In this document: positions 7,743-16,997 of the stretch, piece after piece
Layout of the letters: every line of letters starts with the position of its first letter
Numbering within the stretch: position 1 is the first letter of the stretch
IMG/VR virus record: IMGVR_UViG_3300025079_000006
Coordinates: 1 to 42,557 of that record
Reading direction: 5' to 3' (one strand)
Origin: a virus
DNA: 42,557 bases
Notes under the pieces: model-generated
What the model was told of the DNA's origin: nothing
What the model saw: only the letters and a program-made list of their open reading frames with translations
The model's database searches: none
Made by a program: the position numbers and the translations under genes

Positions 7743-9326
7743 ATGATAGTAAAACAAGTAAGCTTTGAGGATAAGGCACGCCAGGACCTTATTGATGGTA
7801 TCAACACACTGGCTGACGCAGTGAAGAGCACACTAGGTGCTAGGGGCAAGACGGTCCTAATAGAGTCAGAGAATCATACACACGGTATTACAGTGACCAA
7901 GGATGGTGTGACGGTAGCTAAGAGTATTAACCTTATGCACCCCACGCAGAACCTTGCGGTTACGATGATGAAGGAGGCAGCGGAGAACACGGCTGTGTCA
8001 GCTGGCGATGGAACGACAACAGCAATAGTGATAACGCAGGCGATAGTGCTGGAGGCACAGAAGAGGATTAAGGACCACATGAACCTAACCGATATTATTC
8101 GTGCTATACAGAACAGCAGTAAGTACGTGGTAAAGGAACTACAGAAGGATTCAAAGAAGGTGAACGGCAAGCGGCTGTTGGATGTGGCTACCATATCATC
8201 CAATAACGACAAGGTGATAGGTAAGATTATCGCTGAGGCGTATGACGCAGTTGGCGACAACGGGGTAGTGACGGTAGAGAACGCAAGCGGAACAGAGACC
8301 TACTCTGAGATTATAGAGGGGATGAAGATAGACCGAGGGTATTCGAGTAAGTATTTCATAACAGACCAAAAGAAGGGGGAGTGTGTGCTCGACAACCCAT
8401 ACGTGCTAGTGGCAGACCAGGAAATAAACCACACCAGCAGCATTGAGCACATACTAGCACCCATCATACAGGAGGGGAAGCCCATACTAATTATAGGCAC
8501 GCTATCACCAGCGGCACTGAACACGCTTAACCTAAACAAGGCAAAGGGTGTCATTAAGGTGTGCTCAATTATACCACCGCAGTTTGGGTACAAGAGCCAT
8601 GACCTGATGAGTGACATAGCTATAGCAACAGGTGCTACCTACTACTCGGAGGATACGGGGGACAACCTAGAGACCATCCAGATGGCAGACCTAGGTAGGG
8701 CTAAGAAGGTTATCGTCAGCGGTGCAGGCACGGTGCTCATAAAGGACGACACCCAGGGTGTGCACGTTGAGAACAGGATTAGTGACCTGTGGGAGGAGTA
8801 CAACACCAGCGACAATGTACACCAGCAGGAGTTCATCAAGGAGAGGATAGCCATTATGTCTGGCGGTGTAGCGGTGATACATGTAGGTGCAGGCTCGGAT
8901 ATTGAGCAGAAAGAGAAAAGAGACAGGGTTGACGATGCGGTGTGTGCCACAAGGGCAGCCATTGAGCAGGGAATCCTGCCAGGAGGAGGAATAGCACTCC
9001 TAAAAATTGCGGACGACCTCGCCCAGCGAGGTGATAACGAGAGTACTCGTGTGGGTAACTCAATACTATCCGAGGCTATTAAGTCTCCGTTTAGGCAGAT
9101 AATCATAAACGCAGGTGCTAATCCAGATGAGATAGAGCCCAACCTAGACCCAGGGATTGGGTATGACGTAAAGGATGAGAGATACGGGGACATGATTAAG
9201 CTAGGCATCATCGACCCACTGAAGGTAACAAAGAACGCACTAGAGAACGCAGTGTCGGTGGCGACAACCATTATGTCCACTAACGCAATAATAACTAACG
9301 TAAGAGACTATGAAGGCAGTAGGTAA
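7743..9326 (+). CDS. groEL: Chaperonin GroEL (527 aa)
   Basis: Group I chaperonin that folds proteins in an ATP-driven ring cavity. Visible landmarks: TLGARGKTV near residue 30, KDGVTVAK with Asp54, AGDGTTT at 88-93 (nucleotide binding, Asp89), the apical domain with RGYSSKYF and GKPILIIG, and DRVDDAVCATRAAIEQG with Asp397/398 (ATP hydrolysis), then PGGGIALL. Length is close to bacterial GroEL, but the C-terminal GGM-rich tail is missing. The coding sequence looks more GC-rich than the flanking phage genes. groES overlaps its end by 17 nt. Some large phages encode GroEL, usually without GroES; here both are present, probably for capsid or tail folding. Confidence 0.97.
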   Translation: MIVKQVSFEDKARQDLIDGINTLADAVKSTLGARGKTVLIESENHTHGITVTKDGVTVAKSINLMHPTQNLAVTMMKEAAENTAVSAGDGTTTAIVITQAIVLEAQKRIKDHMNLTDIIRAIQNSSKYVVKELQKDSKKVNGKRLLDVATISSNNDKVIGKIIAEAYDAVGDNGVVTVENASGTETYSEIIEGMKIDRGYSSKYFITDQKKGECVLDNPYVLVADQEINHTSSIEHILAPIIQEGKPILIIGTLSPAALNTLNLNKAKGVIKVCSIIPPQFGYKSHDLMSDIAIATGATYYSEDTGDNLETIQMADLGRAKKVIVSGAGTVLIKDDTQGVHVENRISDLWEEYNTSDNVHQQEFIKERIAIMSGGVAVIHVGAGSDIEQKEKRDRVDDAVCATRAAIEQGILPGGGIALLKIADDLAQRGDNESTRVGNSILSEAIKSPFRQIIINAGANPDEIEPNLDPGIGYDVKDERYGDMIKLGIIDPLKVTKNALENAVSVATTIMSTNAIITNVRDYEGSR

Positions 9327-9567
9327 GTATTTAATAATAGAGAACATCACCGAGGAGCTAACCAGCAATAGCGGATTAATAATGACTGGTGAGGACATGG
9401 GGAACCTAAGATACCGCAAGAGTAAGGTGGTTAGTGCAGGCACGGAGGTAGACTGCGTAAAGGATGGCGATACCATCTACCACGACTCCCGTGCTGGTCA
9501 CAAGGTAAAGCTTGATGATAAGGTGTATGGGGTGATTCTAGAGAGAGAGGTAGTGATAAAGATGTAA
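9310..9567 (+). CDS. groES: Co-chaperonin GroES (85 aa)
   Basis: Begins MKAVGKYLIIENITEEL. A mobile-loop segment (ELTSNSGLIM, about residues 15-25) corresponds to the GroEL-binding loop, followed by VVSAGTEVDCVKDGDTIYHD and a C-terminal VYGVILEREVVIKM typical of the Cpn10 fold. At 85 aa it is about ten residues shorter than usual. The start lies inside the end of groEL in another frame, so the two are translationally coupled. It caps the phage GroEL ring. Confidence 0.9.
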   Translation: MKAVGKYLIIENITEELTSNSGLIMTGEDMGNLRYRKSKVVSAGTEVDCVKDGDTIYHDSRAGHKVKLDDKVYGVILEREVVIKM

Positions 9568-12121: not shown

Positions 12122-12526
12122 ATGAAAAAACTAGCACTATTACTTACTTTATTTTCTTTTTTAACTACCCACTCTCAAACAAGTGAATTAATTGTGGAGC
12201 CCACAAGAGCTACCAAAAGAGCTTGTGTTAAGGGAGATTATAAATCATTAGAAAAGTATTTGACTAAAATAGACCAGAAAAGAGAAGTATTAGAGAAGTA
12301 TGTTCTATATACTAATATCAAACAACAGGACTATAACTACATCATAAAAGATATCGACTCAGATATTGAATACTATAAAGGTGTTTCATACGCATTAAAT
12401 AAGATACTTCACCCTTACATTAAGGTTTCATATTATGTAAACGCTAAGTATACAGCCCTAACACAGTATTATGATAATGGTAATCAAGTAAGTGTGTTTA
12501 TTTTTGGGGATTCACCTCAGCATTGA
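12122..12526 (+). CDS. Secreted protein of unknown function (134 aa)
   Basis: Begins MKKLALLLTLFSFLTTHSQ, a signal peptide with likely cleavage near residue 18. The mature part is charged and helical (YKSLEKYLTKIDQKREVLEK), rich in tyrosine, with one cysteine. It is exported to the periplasm or surface. It has its own ECF-like promoter, and its 3' end overlaps the convergent winged-helix gene by 29 bp, so antisense effects are possible. It might act in exclusion or envelope modification, but this is unproven. Confidence 0.7.
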   Translation: MKKLALLLTLFSFLTTHSQTSELIVEPTRATKRACVKGDYKSLEKYLTKIDQKREVLEKYVLYTNIKQQDYNYIIKDIDSDIEYYKGVSYALNKILHPYIKVSYYVNAKYTALTQYYDNGNQVSVFIFGDSPQH

Positions 12527-13210: not shown

Positions 13211-13483
13211 ATGGCATATCAAAAATTACAAGTAAGTAGAGCAGCGGTAGTGGTTCCGTCAGACACGTTGAACATACCCTCACTAGCTAGTGCAACAACT
13301 ATTAATAACGGCTGTGTACTGTACATTGGTACAGCTGGAGATTTAAAGGTTATGACAGCAGGTGGCGACATTGTTGAGTTTATTGGTGTATTAGCAGGAA
13401 CATTCTTGCCTGTTCAGGTGGTTAGAGTTTTTGCAACAGGCACAACAGGGGCGGCAGCTACAAATATACTAGCTCTCTGGTAG
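13211..13483 (+). CDS. Small virion protein, YQKLQVSRAAVVVPSDT type (90 aa)
   Basis: Begins MAYQKLQVSRAAVVVPSDTL, then NIPSLASATTINNGCVLYIG and a beta-rich Gly/Thr remainder. Proteins starting YQxLQVxRAxxVxPSDT are common small structural or decoration proteins in marine phages (from memory). It lies 3 nt downstream of the previous gene and 1 nt before the LamG-like gene. Confidence 0.7.
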   Translation: MAYQKLQVSRAAVVVPSDTLNIPSLASATTINNGCVLYIGTAGDLKVMTAGGDIVEFIGVLAGTFLPVQVVRVFATGTTGAAATNILALW

Positions 13484-14868: not shown

Positions 14869-15723
14869 ATGAAGAAACTACTCCTACTACTACTTATATT
14901 TCCAATTTTTATTAACAGTCAAGTTACGTTACTAATGCCTAACGATGGTTTCTGGTACACCTACACTACTGACGATGCTATTCTCTACGATGATGGAGGA
15001 TTAAATGATTACGCTAATGATGGGTTAGGGGCTTTGACCATATATCCAGTGATAGGAACAGTAACAGCTAATGTTGGGTTCTTTGATGTAGAATTTAATT
15101 CTACGTGTGGGTGGGATGTTTTTGAGGTGTATGATGGGGATGATTTTAGTAATCTAATAGGAAGCTATTGTGGTACTAGTATTCCAACCACCTTTCAATC
15201 TACACACCCTACGGGAGCACTTACTTTCTTTTGGTCTACTGATGGGAGTGTTACATTCCCAGGATTTGAAATAAGGATAGGTAACTTCAACATGTCTTTA
15301 CCTATAGAGTTAATATCTTTTACCGCTGGATATAATGGTAGTTATGTAGTAATTGACTGGAGTGTTGCGGCACAGATTAATAATGACTATTATGAGGTTC
15401 ACAGAAGTATAGATGTGGAGAATTGGGAAACAATATCTACTATTGAGGGTGAAGGAAACAGTAACACTCAGATGGATTACAGAACGATAGATGAAACCCC
15501 TCTATTAGGTGTTTCTTATTATAGATTATCACAAACAGATTATGACGGGACTACGGAGAGTTTTTCACCCATATCGGTAGTTATTAAACCAAAAAGAAAG
15601 GAATTAGTTAAAATATTTAATATCTTTGGACAAGAAGTAAACCACAATTACCACGGAATTGTTTTTAAATTATACCGTGATGGTTCGGTAGAAAAAACAC
15701 TAAACAATGGGAGATTTAACTAA
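14869..15723 (+). CDS. Secreted CUB protein with type IX secretion sorting domain (284 aa)
   Basis: Signal peptide 1-18 (MKKLLLLLLIFPIFINS). Residues about 20-142 form a CUB domain: ILYDDGGLNDYANDG, WDVFEVYDGDD, GSYCGTSIPTTFQST and ALTFFWSTDGSVT. Residues 145-243 are the LPIELISFTA...YYEVHRSID...YYRLSQTDYDGTTE module that precedes sorting signals in many Bacteroidota T9SS cargo proteins. Residues 247-284 (KIFNIFGQEV...LYRDGSVEKTL) fit a type A T9SS C-terminal domain. The product should cross the inner membrane by Sec and be put on the host surface or released by T9SS. It lies between a holin-like gene and the endolysin, whose start it overlaps by 17 nt. Confidence 0.85.
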   Translation: MKKLLLLLLIFPIFINSQVTLLMPNDGFWYTYTTDDAILYDDGGLNDYANDGLGALTIYPVIGTVTANVGFFDVEFNSTCGWDVFEVYDGDDFSNLIGSYCGTSIPTTFQSTHPTGALTFFWSTDGSVTFPGFEIRIGNFNMSLPIELISFTAGYNGSYVVIDWSVAAQINNDYYEVHRSIDVENWETISTIEGEGNSNTQMDYRTIDETPLLGVSYYRLSQTDYDGTTESFSPISVVIKPKRKELVKIFNIFGQEVNHNYHGIVFKLYRDGSVEKTLNNGRFN

Positions 15724-16090
15724 AAATTTTAGCAAGTCAGAGTTCAACTGCAACTGTGGATGTGATATGCCAGAGGATGTATTTGATAATGTAGATGTAC
15801 ACGCACAGAACCTACAGACAATTAGAGATTTCTTTAATTCTTCAGTAGTTATAAACTCAGGGTACAGATGCCCTAGCTACAATGCTAAGGTGGGTGGAGC
15901 CTCAAAATCTCAGCACATGACTGGCAATGCTAGCGATGTGGTTATATCTGGATACACAGACAGTGAGGTTGCTGACATAATTGAAGGATTAATAAGAATA
16001 GGGGCTATTGACGAGGGTGGATTAGGAAGGTATAACACATTTACCCACTATGACCGAAGGGGTACTAAGGCTAGATGGGACAACACTTAA
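15707..16090 (+). CDS. Endolysin, peptidase M15 family (127 aa)
   Basis: Zinc D,D-/L,D-peptidase that cuts peptidoglycan cross-bridges. Visible features: N-terminal FSKSEFNCNCGC, VINSGYRCPSYNAKVGG, then SQHMTGNASDV with zinc ligands His70 and Asp77, and FTHYDRRG with His114 as third ligand. Length is normal for a single-domain Peptidase_M15_3 enzyme. No signal peptide, so it needs a holin. It overlaps the CUB-protein gene by 17 nt. Confidence 0.88.
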   Translation: MGDLTKNFSKSEFNCNCGCDMPEDVFDNVDVHAQNLQTIRDFFNSSVVINSGYRCPSYNAKVGGASKSQHMTGNASDVVISGYTDSEVADIIEGLIRIGAIDEGGLGRYNTFTHYDRRGTKARWDNT

Positions 16091-16100
16091 AACAATAACT

Positions 16101-16280
16101 ATGAAAAATAGATTATTTTCAAACTATGTGACTACAATTTTAGGATTACTAATAATAATCTTTTGTGGTACTATGATTTTTATGGAAAAAGCCACTATTG
16201 AGGACATGTCAGGGTGGATGACCACAGGTTTATTATTTTTACGTTCAAAAGATTCTTTAATTGCGTTACCGAAGTCTTAA
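16101..16280 (+). CDS. Small membrane protein, holin candidate (59 aa)
   Basis: Begins MKNRLFSNYVTTILGLLIII, a transmembrane helix at about 10-28, then a second weaker hydrophobic stretch (MSGWMTTGLLFL) and LRSKDSLIALPKS. An upstream in-frame start inside the endolysin gene exists, but the ATG at 16101 with its A-rich leader is more natural. The LRSKDSLI ending is common in Bacteroidota phages from memory. It overlaps the next gene by 20 nt. Confidence 0.65.
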   Translation: MKNRLFSNYVTTILGLLIIIFCGTMIFMEKATIEDMSGWMTTGLLFLRSKDSLIALPKS

Positions 16281-16698
16281 AATATTTATTATCTTTGCAG
16301 CCGTTTTAGTAGGATGTACTCCACAGAAAAGGTTGAATAGGTTAATTAAAAAAAACCCTTATTTATTACAAATGGATACCATTAGAATTATTGATACCGT
16401 AGTTGTACCTGAGTACACCCATGATACTACAACATTTATACAATATCATGACAGTGTAACGGTAATTAACAATGAACGAATTAAAATCAAATATTTCTAC
16501 GACACGCTTCGAGAAACAATCCATCATGAGTACACATGCTATGGCGACACGGTTTTTTCGGAGAAAATTATACCGTATGAGAAAATCGTTATACAGGAGC
16601 TTACTTGGTGGCAAAAATATGGTAGCGTAGTAATGATAGGGGGGTTCCTATTGTTGTTCCTATTAATACTAAAGAAGTTTGGTAAACTATTGGTATAA
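16261..16698 (+). CDS. Lipoprotein with C-terminal TM helix, unimolecular-spanin-like (145 aa)
   Basis: Starts at TTG (16261). The N-terminus ends in a lipobox (AAVLVGC, Cys19), predicting outer-membrane lipidation. Residues 20-118 are a polar periplasmic part. Residues about 121-141 (YGSVVMIGGFLLLFLLILKK) form an inner-membrane helix. A lipobox plus C-terminal TM is the topology of u-spanins such as T1 gp11, which fuse inner and outer membranes at lysis. The only nearby ATG (codon 39) would remove the lipobox, so TTG is preferred. It follows the endolysin and a holin candidate. Confidence 0.7.
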   Translation: MRYRSLKIFIIFAAVLVGCTPQKRLNRLIKKNPYLLQMDTIRIIDTVVVPEYTHDTTTFIQYHDSVTVINNERIKIKYFYDTLRETIHHEYTCYGDTVFSEKIIPYEKIVIQELTWWQKYGSVVMIGGFLLLFLLILKKFGKLLV

Positions 16699-16727: not shown

Positions 16728-16997
16728 ATGGCAAAAATAAGTACATACGCAACCGCAACACCAGCATTAACGGATATGGTTCCAGGAACAGATACTGGAG
16801 AAGCTAACGCAACAAAAAACTTTACCTTTGAGGCGATAAGAGATTTCATTAGTGGTCAACACGCAGACGTTACAAATGTCCCTGCGTCCGCTGGCTCAAC
16901 AGGGGTTGCTGGACAATTAGCGGTAGATGCAAACTACTTATACGCATGTGTTGCTACTAATACGTGGAAAAGAGTAGCTATTGCTGGTTGGGTTTAA
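16728..16997 (+). CDS. Small virion/fibre-type protein (89 aa)
   Basis: Begins MAKISTYATATPALTDMVPG, then TDTGEANATKNFTFEAIRDF and a C-terminal YLYACVATNTWKRVAIAGW. From memory, the start MAKISTYxxxTPALTDM..GTD...NATKNFT is common near tail-fibre genes of marine phages, and the C-terminal strand resembles fibre repeat ends. First gene of its transcription unit. Confidence 0.65.
   Translation: MAKISTYATATPALTDMVPGTDTGEANATKNFTFEAIRDFISGQHADVTNVPASAGSTGVAGQLAVDANYLYACVATNTWKRVAIAGWV

Follow-up and report, generated by a model that had tools for sequence, protein, structure and literature searches.

The window analysed here is the whole 42,557-base virus record. Its nearest terminase relatives with named hosts come from phages of Flavobacterium, Cellulophaga, Tenacibaculum and Maribacter, and the virus appears to be one of marine Flavobacteria-like bacteria. 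Upstream of an M15 endolysin lies a gene that starts with ATG and encodes 284 amino acids followed by a stop codon. In its product, an apparent signal peptide is followed by a CUB domain, an FN3-like module and, at the C-terminus, a tail of about 40 residues (KIFNIFGQEV...DGSVEK). The features of the gene and its surroundings are collected in Table 1.

Table 1 Coordinates of the CUB gene, its parts and other features in the window (residue numbers refer to the CUB protein)
Feature	Coordinates	Strand	Basis
GroEL-like 527-aa ORF	7743-9326		
GroES-like 85-aa ORF	9310-9567		
134-aa ORF, apparent signal peptide, C-terminus other than the short tail	12122-12526		
Tail match	13211-13483		PHROG
61-aa ORF, charged/heptad N-terminal half, one hydrophobic C-terminal segment	14681..14866	+	sequence; weak Pfam coiled-coil
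CUB / FN3-like module / short-CTD protein	14869..15723	+	ORF call; 10 further viral orthologues aligned, plus identical L002
Apparent Sec signal peptide, residues 1-18 (MKKLLLLLLIFPIFINSQ)	14869..14922	+	by inspection
CUB domain, residues 19-141	14923..15291	+	PF00431; CUB structures; invariant columns
LPIELISF...YYRLSQTDYDG module, FN3-like beta sandwich, residues 143-240	15295..15588	+	AF2; cellular proteins
Short C-terminal T9SS-like sorting tail, residues 241-279	15589..15705	+	cell-only HMM; C-terminal in homologues
M15 peptidase endolysin	15707..16090	+	PF08291 E=1.6e-21; phrog_894 endolysin E=1.1e-36
59-aa TM ORF	16101..16280	+	start common to orthologues; function-unassigned PHROG
145-aa ORF, lipobox-like VGC near N-terminus, C-terminal TM	16261..16698	+	by inspection
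Tail match	16728-16997		PHROG

The N-terminus looks like a typical signal peptide, with KK in the n-region, LLLLLLIFPIFI as the h-region and NSQ in the c-region, and full-length orthologues also carry N-terminal hydrophobic segments. Residues 65-136 match PF00431 at E=1.2e-8 (35.7 bits against a gathering cut-off of 21.4 bits), and the family profile matches solved CUB structures, including cubilin (E=1e-32), neuropilin and others. The original prediction had read this ORF as a signal peptide, a CUB domain, the LPIELISFTA...YYRLSQTDYDG module and a C-terminal segment. All of these are present, the CUB domain by the Pfam search that it had proposed as a check and the signal peptide by inspection.

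The acidic residues E75, D83 and D125 are invariant among the aligned relatives and resemble in position the acidic residues of the CUB Ca2+ site, which in C1s are Glu45, Asp53 and Asp98 (PMC4222235). They line up by eye with acidic residues of cubilin. The phage domain shares the Pfam family with the CUB domains of cubilin, the neuropilins and C1s, and its E/D/D positions can be aligned by eye with those of cubilin, but it differs in being viral and in being followed by an FN3-like module and the putative sorting tail. An AF2 model of module and tail is all-beta, with a mean pLDDT of 90.6. Foldseek searches with this model returned nothing at E up to 1e-3 (best value 1.7e-3), and the resemblance to FN3/Ig-like folds is only generic. 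The full-length model was poor and was left out of the fold search because of its mean pLDDT of 53.

From 14 loci returned by a viral scan, the window protein was aligned with 10 others (alignment A1); the protein at locus L002 is a 100% identical copy. Module and tail are kept in all 10 further orthologues. Each domain is under purifying selection, with pairwise dN/dS of about 0.06 to 0.41 where computable, and in 4 of the 5 pairs that gave a value for the CUB domain, this value was the lowest. Past its tail, the window protein continues as far as NGRFN, this last stretch being encoded where the gene overlaps the M15 start (15706-15723), and the proteins at L005 and L006 stop at the tail without an extension of this type.

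The CUB gene and the start of the M15 endolysin gene share 17 nt. Upstream, the 61-residue ORF is XhlA/holin-like by architecture only and matches phrog_5225, a PHROG of unassigned function. Downstream, the 59-residue ORF is a possible holin or lysis accessory, and the 145-residue ORF has a u-spanin-like architecture and matches no family of known function in Pfam or PHROG. This layout, with the CUB gene followed by the M15 endolysin and small TM ORFs, is common to loci L002-L007, L012 and L133. Farther upstream in the window, the 134-residue ORF has no significant family match in Pfam or PHROG. GroEL/GroES-like ORFs occur also in the record of L012 and are annotated in MW202828.

The C-terminal tail and T9SS sorting signals

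The original prediction had treated the module and C-terminal segment as a T9SS sorting signal and had counted the lack of a match to sorting profiles as evidence against itself, and this is the result that the curated libraries gave. No type A, B or C profile matched the window protein in Pfam (E up to 1) or NCBIfam (E up to 10). More specifically, the type A profiles TIGR04183 and PF18962 gave no match to it while positive controls matched, and neither did TIGR04131 (type B) or NF033708 (type C) at E up to 10. Proteins that join the module to a longer tail match Por_Secre_tail in one or both libraries. T9SS profiles score in both libraries for L015 and L197, in Pfam only for L014 and in NCBIfam only for L020.

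The failed library test was therefore replaced by a tail HMM trained on cellular sequences and by a positional test. The HMM was built from cells only, since a mixed profile of phage and cellular tails (A2) would be circular. Trained on 28 cellular tails, it finds the window ORF at E=1.1e-14, while the runner-up among the 172 window ORFs and 2000 shuffles reaches E 0.13. T9SS targeting is thus supported by way of the short tail, through the cell-only HMM and its terminal position, whereas the curated profiles are blind to it.

The tail resembles type A signals in motif D, and its likeness to motif E is by eye. When the 28 cellular short tails were compared with 26 type A tails by hhalign, only the motif D stretch aligned (prob 39, P=3e-4). 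Like the type A CTD (TIGR04183, PF18962), the phage tail is C-terminal after the same LPIELISF module and carries a motif D-like KIxNxxGQEV, but it has only some 40 residues and escapes both profiles. The type C CTD (NF033708, ChiA) is comparable as a CTD class apart from A and B (PMC10202324), although its profile does not match the window protein. A tail this short could work, because a stretch of 22 aa at the end of the HBP35 CTD, comprising motifs D and E, is enough for GFP export (reviewed in PMC10202324).

A scan of species-representative genome contigs with the A1 profile returned cellular proteins with the same module. In all 43 that were read to their end, the module is followed by a C-terminal tail, short in 11 and of type A length in 32. 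The A2 tail profile, which mixes phage and cellular rows, was run against 395 genomes from the same class and gave at least 25 matches in at least 15 of them; the tail ends 0-7 aa from the C-terminus in every class-level match inspected, and the N-terminal parts of these proteins are diverse, including a multicopper oxidase. The 15 positive genomes all encode SprA, but so do 383 of the 395 overall, so that its co-occurrence with the tail is uninformative about T9SS. In a phylum-wide survey, the centre genome was the only one among the matches listed, and the short tail is therefore uncommon at the threshold used, in surveys whose first step limits the number of candidates per genome.

One of 146 cyanobacterial genomes matched, namely SAG G019, the source of locus L026 and already present in the first scan. 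The contig, filed as Prochlorococcus, encodes a large module/short-tail protein (L026 1529-4417) flanked by KDILKE ORFs like those of the viral locus L135. It looks phage-derived and is probably a Bacteroidota-phage contaminant.

Genomic settings and possible roles of the CUB protein

The setting of the gene in a lysis cassette, also part of the original prediction, holds for the window lineage, where the M15 endolysin and TM ORFs follow, but is not conserved across lineages. The proposed survey of related phages likewise found the gene kept in several lineages, with a neighbourhood that differs from one to the next. In L008-L011, whose terminase is nearest to that of the crAss-like phage phi14:2 (33.6%), the CUB gene lies upstream of an IHF-like gene (by inspection) and terminase genes. 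In L175, the CUB protein has the short tail, and the next gene downstream resembles that for the L139 ribonucleotide reductase. Finally, in L197, a phage contig 241,918 bp long for which a terminase match was obtained, the CUB gene adjoins an aminotransferase-like ORF (by inspection). Its CUB domain is 57.6% identical to that of the window and is joined to a TIGR04183/PF18962 type A signal above cut-off. Due to these varied settings, the lysis setting is no property of the CUB family. A lysis-specific role was set aside, since CUB relatives elsewhere sit before IHF/terminase or ribonucleotide reductase genes.

The combination of a signal peptide with a tail common to the bacteria's own secreted proteins makes it probable that the infected cell exports the protein via T9SS, and on these sequence features we predict export with good confidence. 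The signal peptide would bring the protein to the periplasm, and the host T9SS would read the short C-terminal tail, so that the protein crosses the outer membrane with the FN3-like module as a spacer. The CUB domain may then bind a ligand on the surface of the infected cell. By occupying or altering a surface receptor, it would cause other phages to fail at adsorption, and the same block would keep released progeny off spent cells and debris. We prefer such a surface-occupying role because CUB is a ligand-binding domain under strong constraint and the genomic settings vary. Phage cargo for the host T9SS that most likely blocks adsorption at a surface receptor is our main reading, at a probability of roughly 0.45; if export is granted, the receptor-blocking role has even to slightly better odds.

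Late surface export could instead serve lysis, with the CUB protein helping the M15 endolysin and the spanin-like protein to breach a surface layer or capsule. The overlap with the endolysin start and the compact block with small TM ORFs, kept in the eight loci named above, fit such an accessory, as does T9SS-like cargo in L154 and L164, where an amidase endolysin is encoded one or two genes away. However, the CUB relatives in crAss-like contigs, L175 and L197 adjoin no recognised lysis gene, and the CUB domain here belongs to no enzymatic family, which makes this role unlikely. Equally unlikely in our estimate is a host-derived secreted protein, binding Ca2+ or glycans, whose gene is retained as an auxiliary one serving the infected cell and has no anti-phage role. 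Module and tail do occur in cellular proteins, and the N-terminal parts of the viral cargo vary (CUB, MAM or no family), but the gene is conserved in several phage lineages, and none of the cellular loci read encodes a protein with CUB, module and short tail.

The tail might also have no T9SS role, the protein being periplasmic or a virion-associated adhesin beside tail-fibre genes. This would agree with the silence of the curated T9SS profiles and with the two PHROG tail matches nearby. The apparent signal peptide, the finding that the tail is terminal in cells and phages alike, and the L197 protein, in which a related CUB domain is joined to a curated type A signal, all speak against it, and we hold it to be less probable than the two preceding roles. 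Least probable is a decoy, in which an abundant short-tailed protein competes for T9SS or its shuttle and lowers the SprB/RemA-like adhesins used as phage receptors. The gliding machinery has been proposed to include flavobacterial phage receptors (PMC7345892), and overproduced type B cargo outstrips the capacity of its shuttle (PMC12618676). Yet PorV, the type A shuttle, is apparently in excess (PMC12618676), and a decoy would need the tail alone, whereas it is the CUB domain that mostly shows the lowest dN/dS.

Phage-encoded T9SS cargo and the spread of the short tail

The original prediction was wrong in knowing of no described phage effector of this kind. Three cargo genes with T9SS tags were reported from Cryophage by Bellas et al. 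2020 (PMC7468147), who proposed a role in superinfection exclusion, and T9SS sorting-domain proteins are mentioned in crAss-like phages (PMC6949934). The class is therefore not new. The Cryophage cargo resembles the window protein in that phage genes carry T9SS sorting signals, for which exclusion is suggested. It differs in that the proteins with type A signals are an endoglucanase, a GH39 protein and a PA14 protein, encoded in variable islands, while the window encodes a CUB protein whose short tail escapes curated profiles. The literature searched contained nothing on the short tail, its breadth in phages or CUB cargo; the short tail and its spread among phages are new here.

A viral scan with module and tail as query yielded 282 confirmed stretches, and 80 of these were retained. 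The short tail is found in 53 of the 62 further viral loci read, a proportion biased towards the short tail because the query itself contains it, and in all 53 it lies no more than 8 aa from the C-terminus. A terminase profile is matched by 13 of the 44 records behind short-tail loci (10 at E<1e-35), and the rest are viral by their IMG/VR listing. Clustering the viral cargo by N-terminal part was discarded, as the shared module sequence merged most proteins. In INPHARED only four records matched, all of uncultured large phages.

Tentatively, many phages of marine Bacteroidota, from podovirus-like (about 60 kb) and crAss-like lineages up to those with contigs of more than 200 kb, may send surface proteins through the host T9SS by means of this distinct short tail, in a shared strategy of surface remodelling. 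If so, phages of an abundant marine bacterial group would commonly use a secretion system restricted to the phylum of their hosts for surface display, and the short tail would be a sorting signal overlooked by present annotation. For surface-based exclusion in Flavobacteria, the CUB cargo would be a candidate that can be put to the test.

Two further observations were made among the viral records. In a 142-kb record, the locus L189 (1-6423) encodes two short-tail proteins, and secreted-looking ORFs nearby have type A-like ends. Furthermore, the terminase matches in the records of L191 and L202 (G598 and G603) show a terminase-like frame with two TGA codons and one TAA codon in the matched stretch, possibly reflecting an intron or an altered code.
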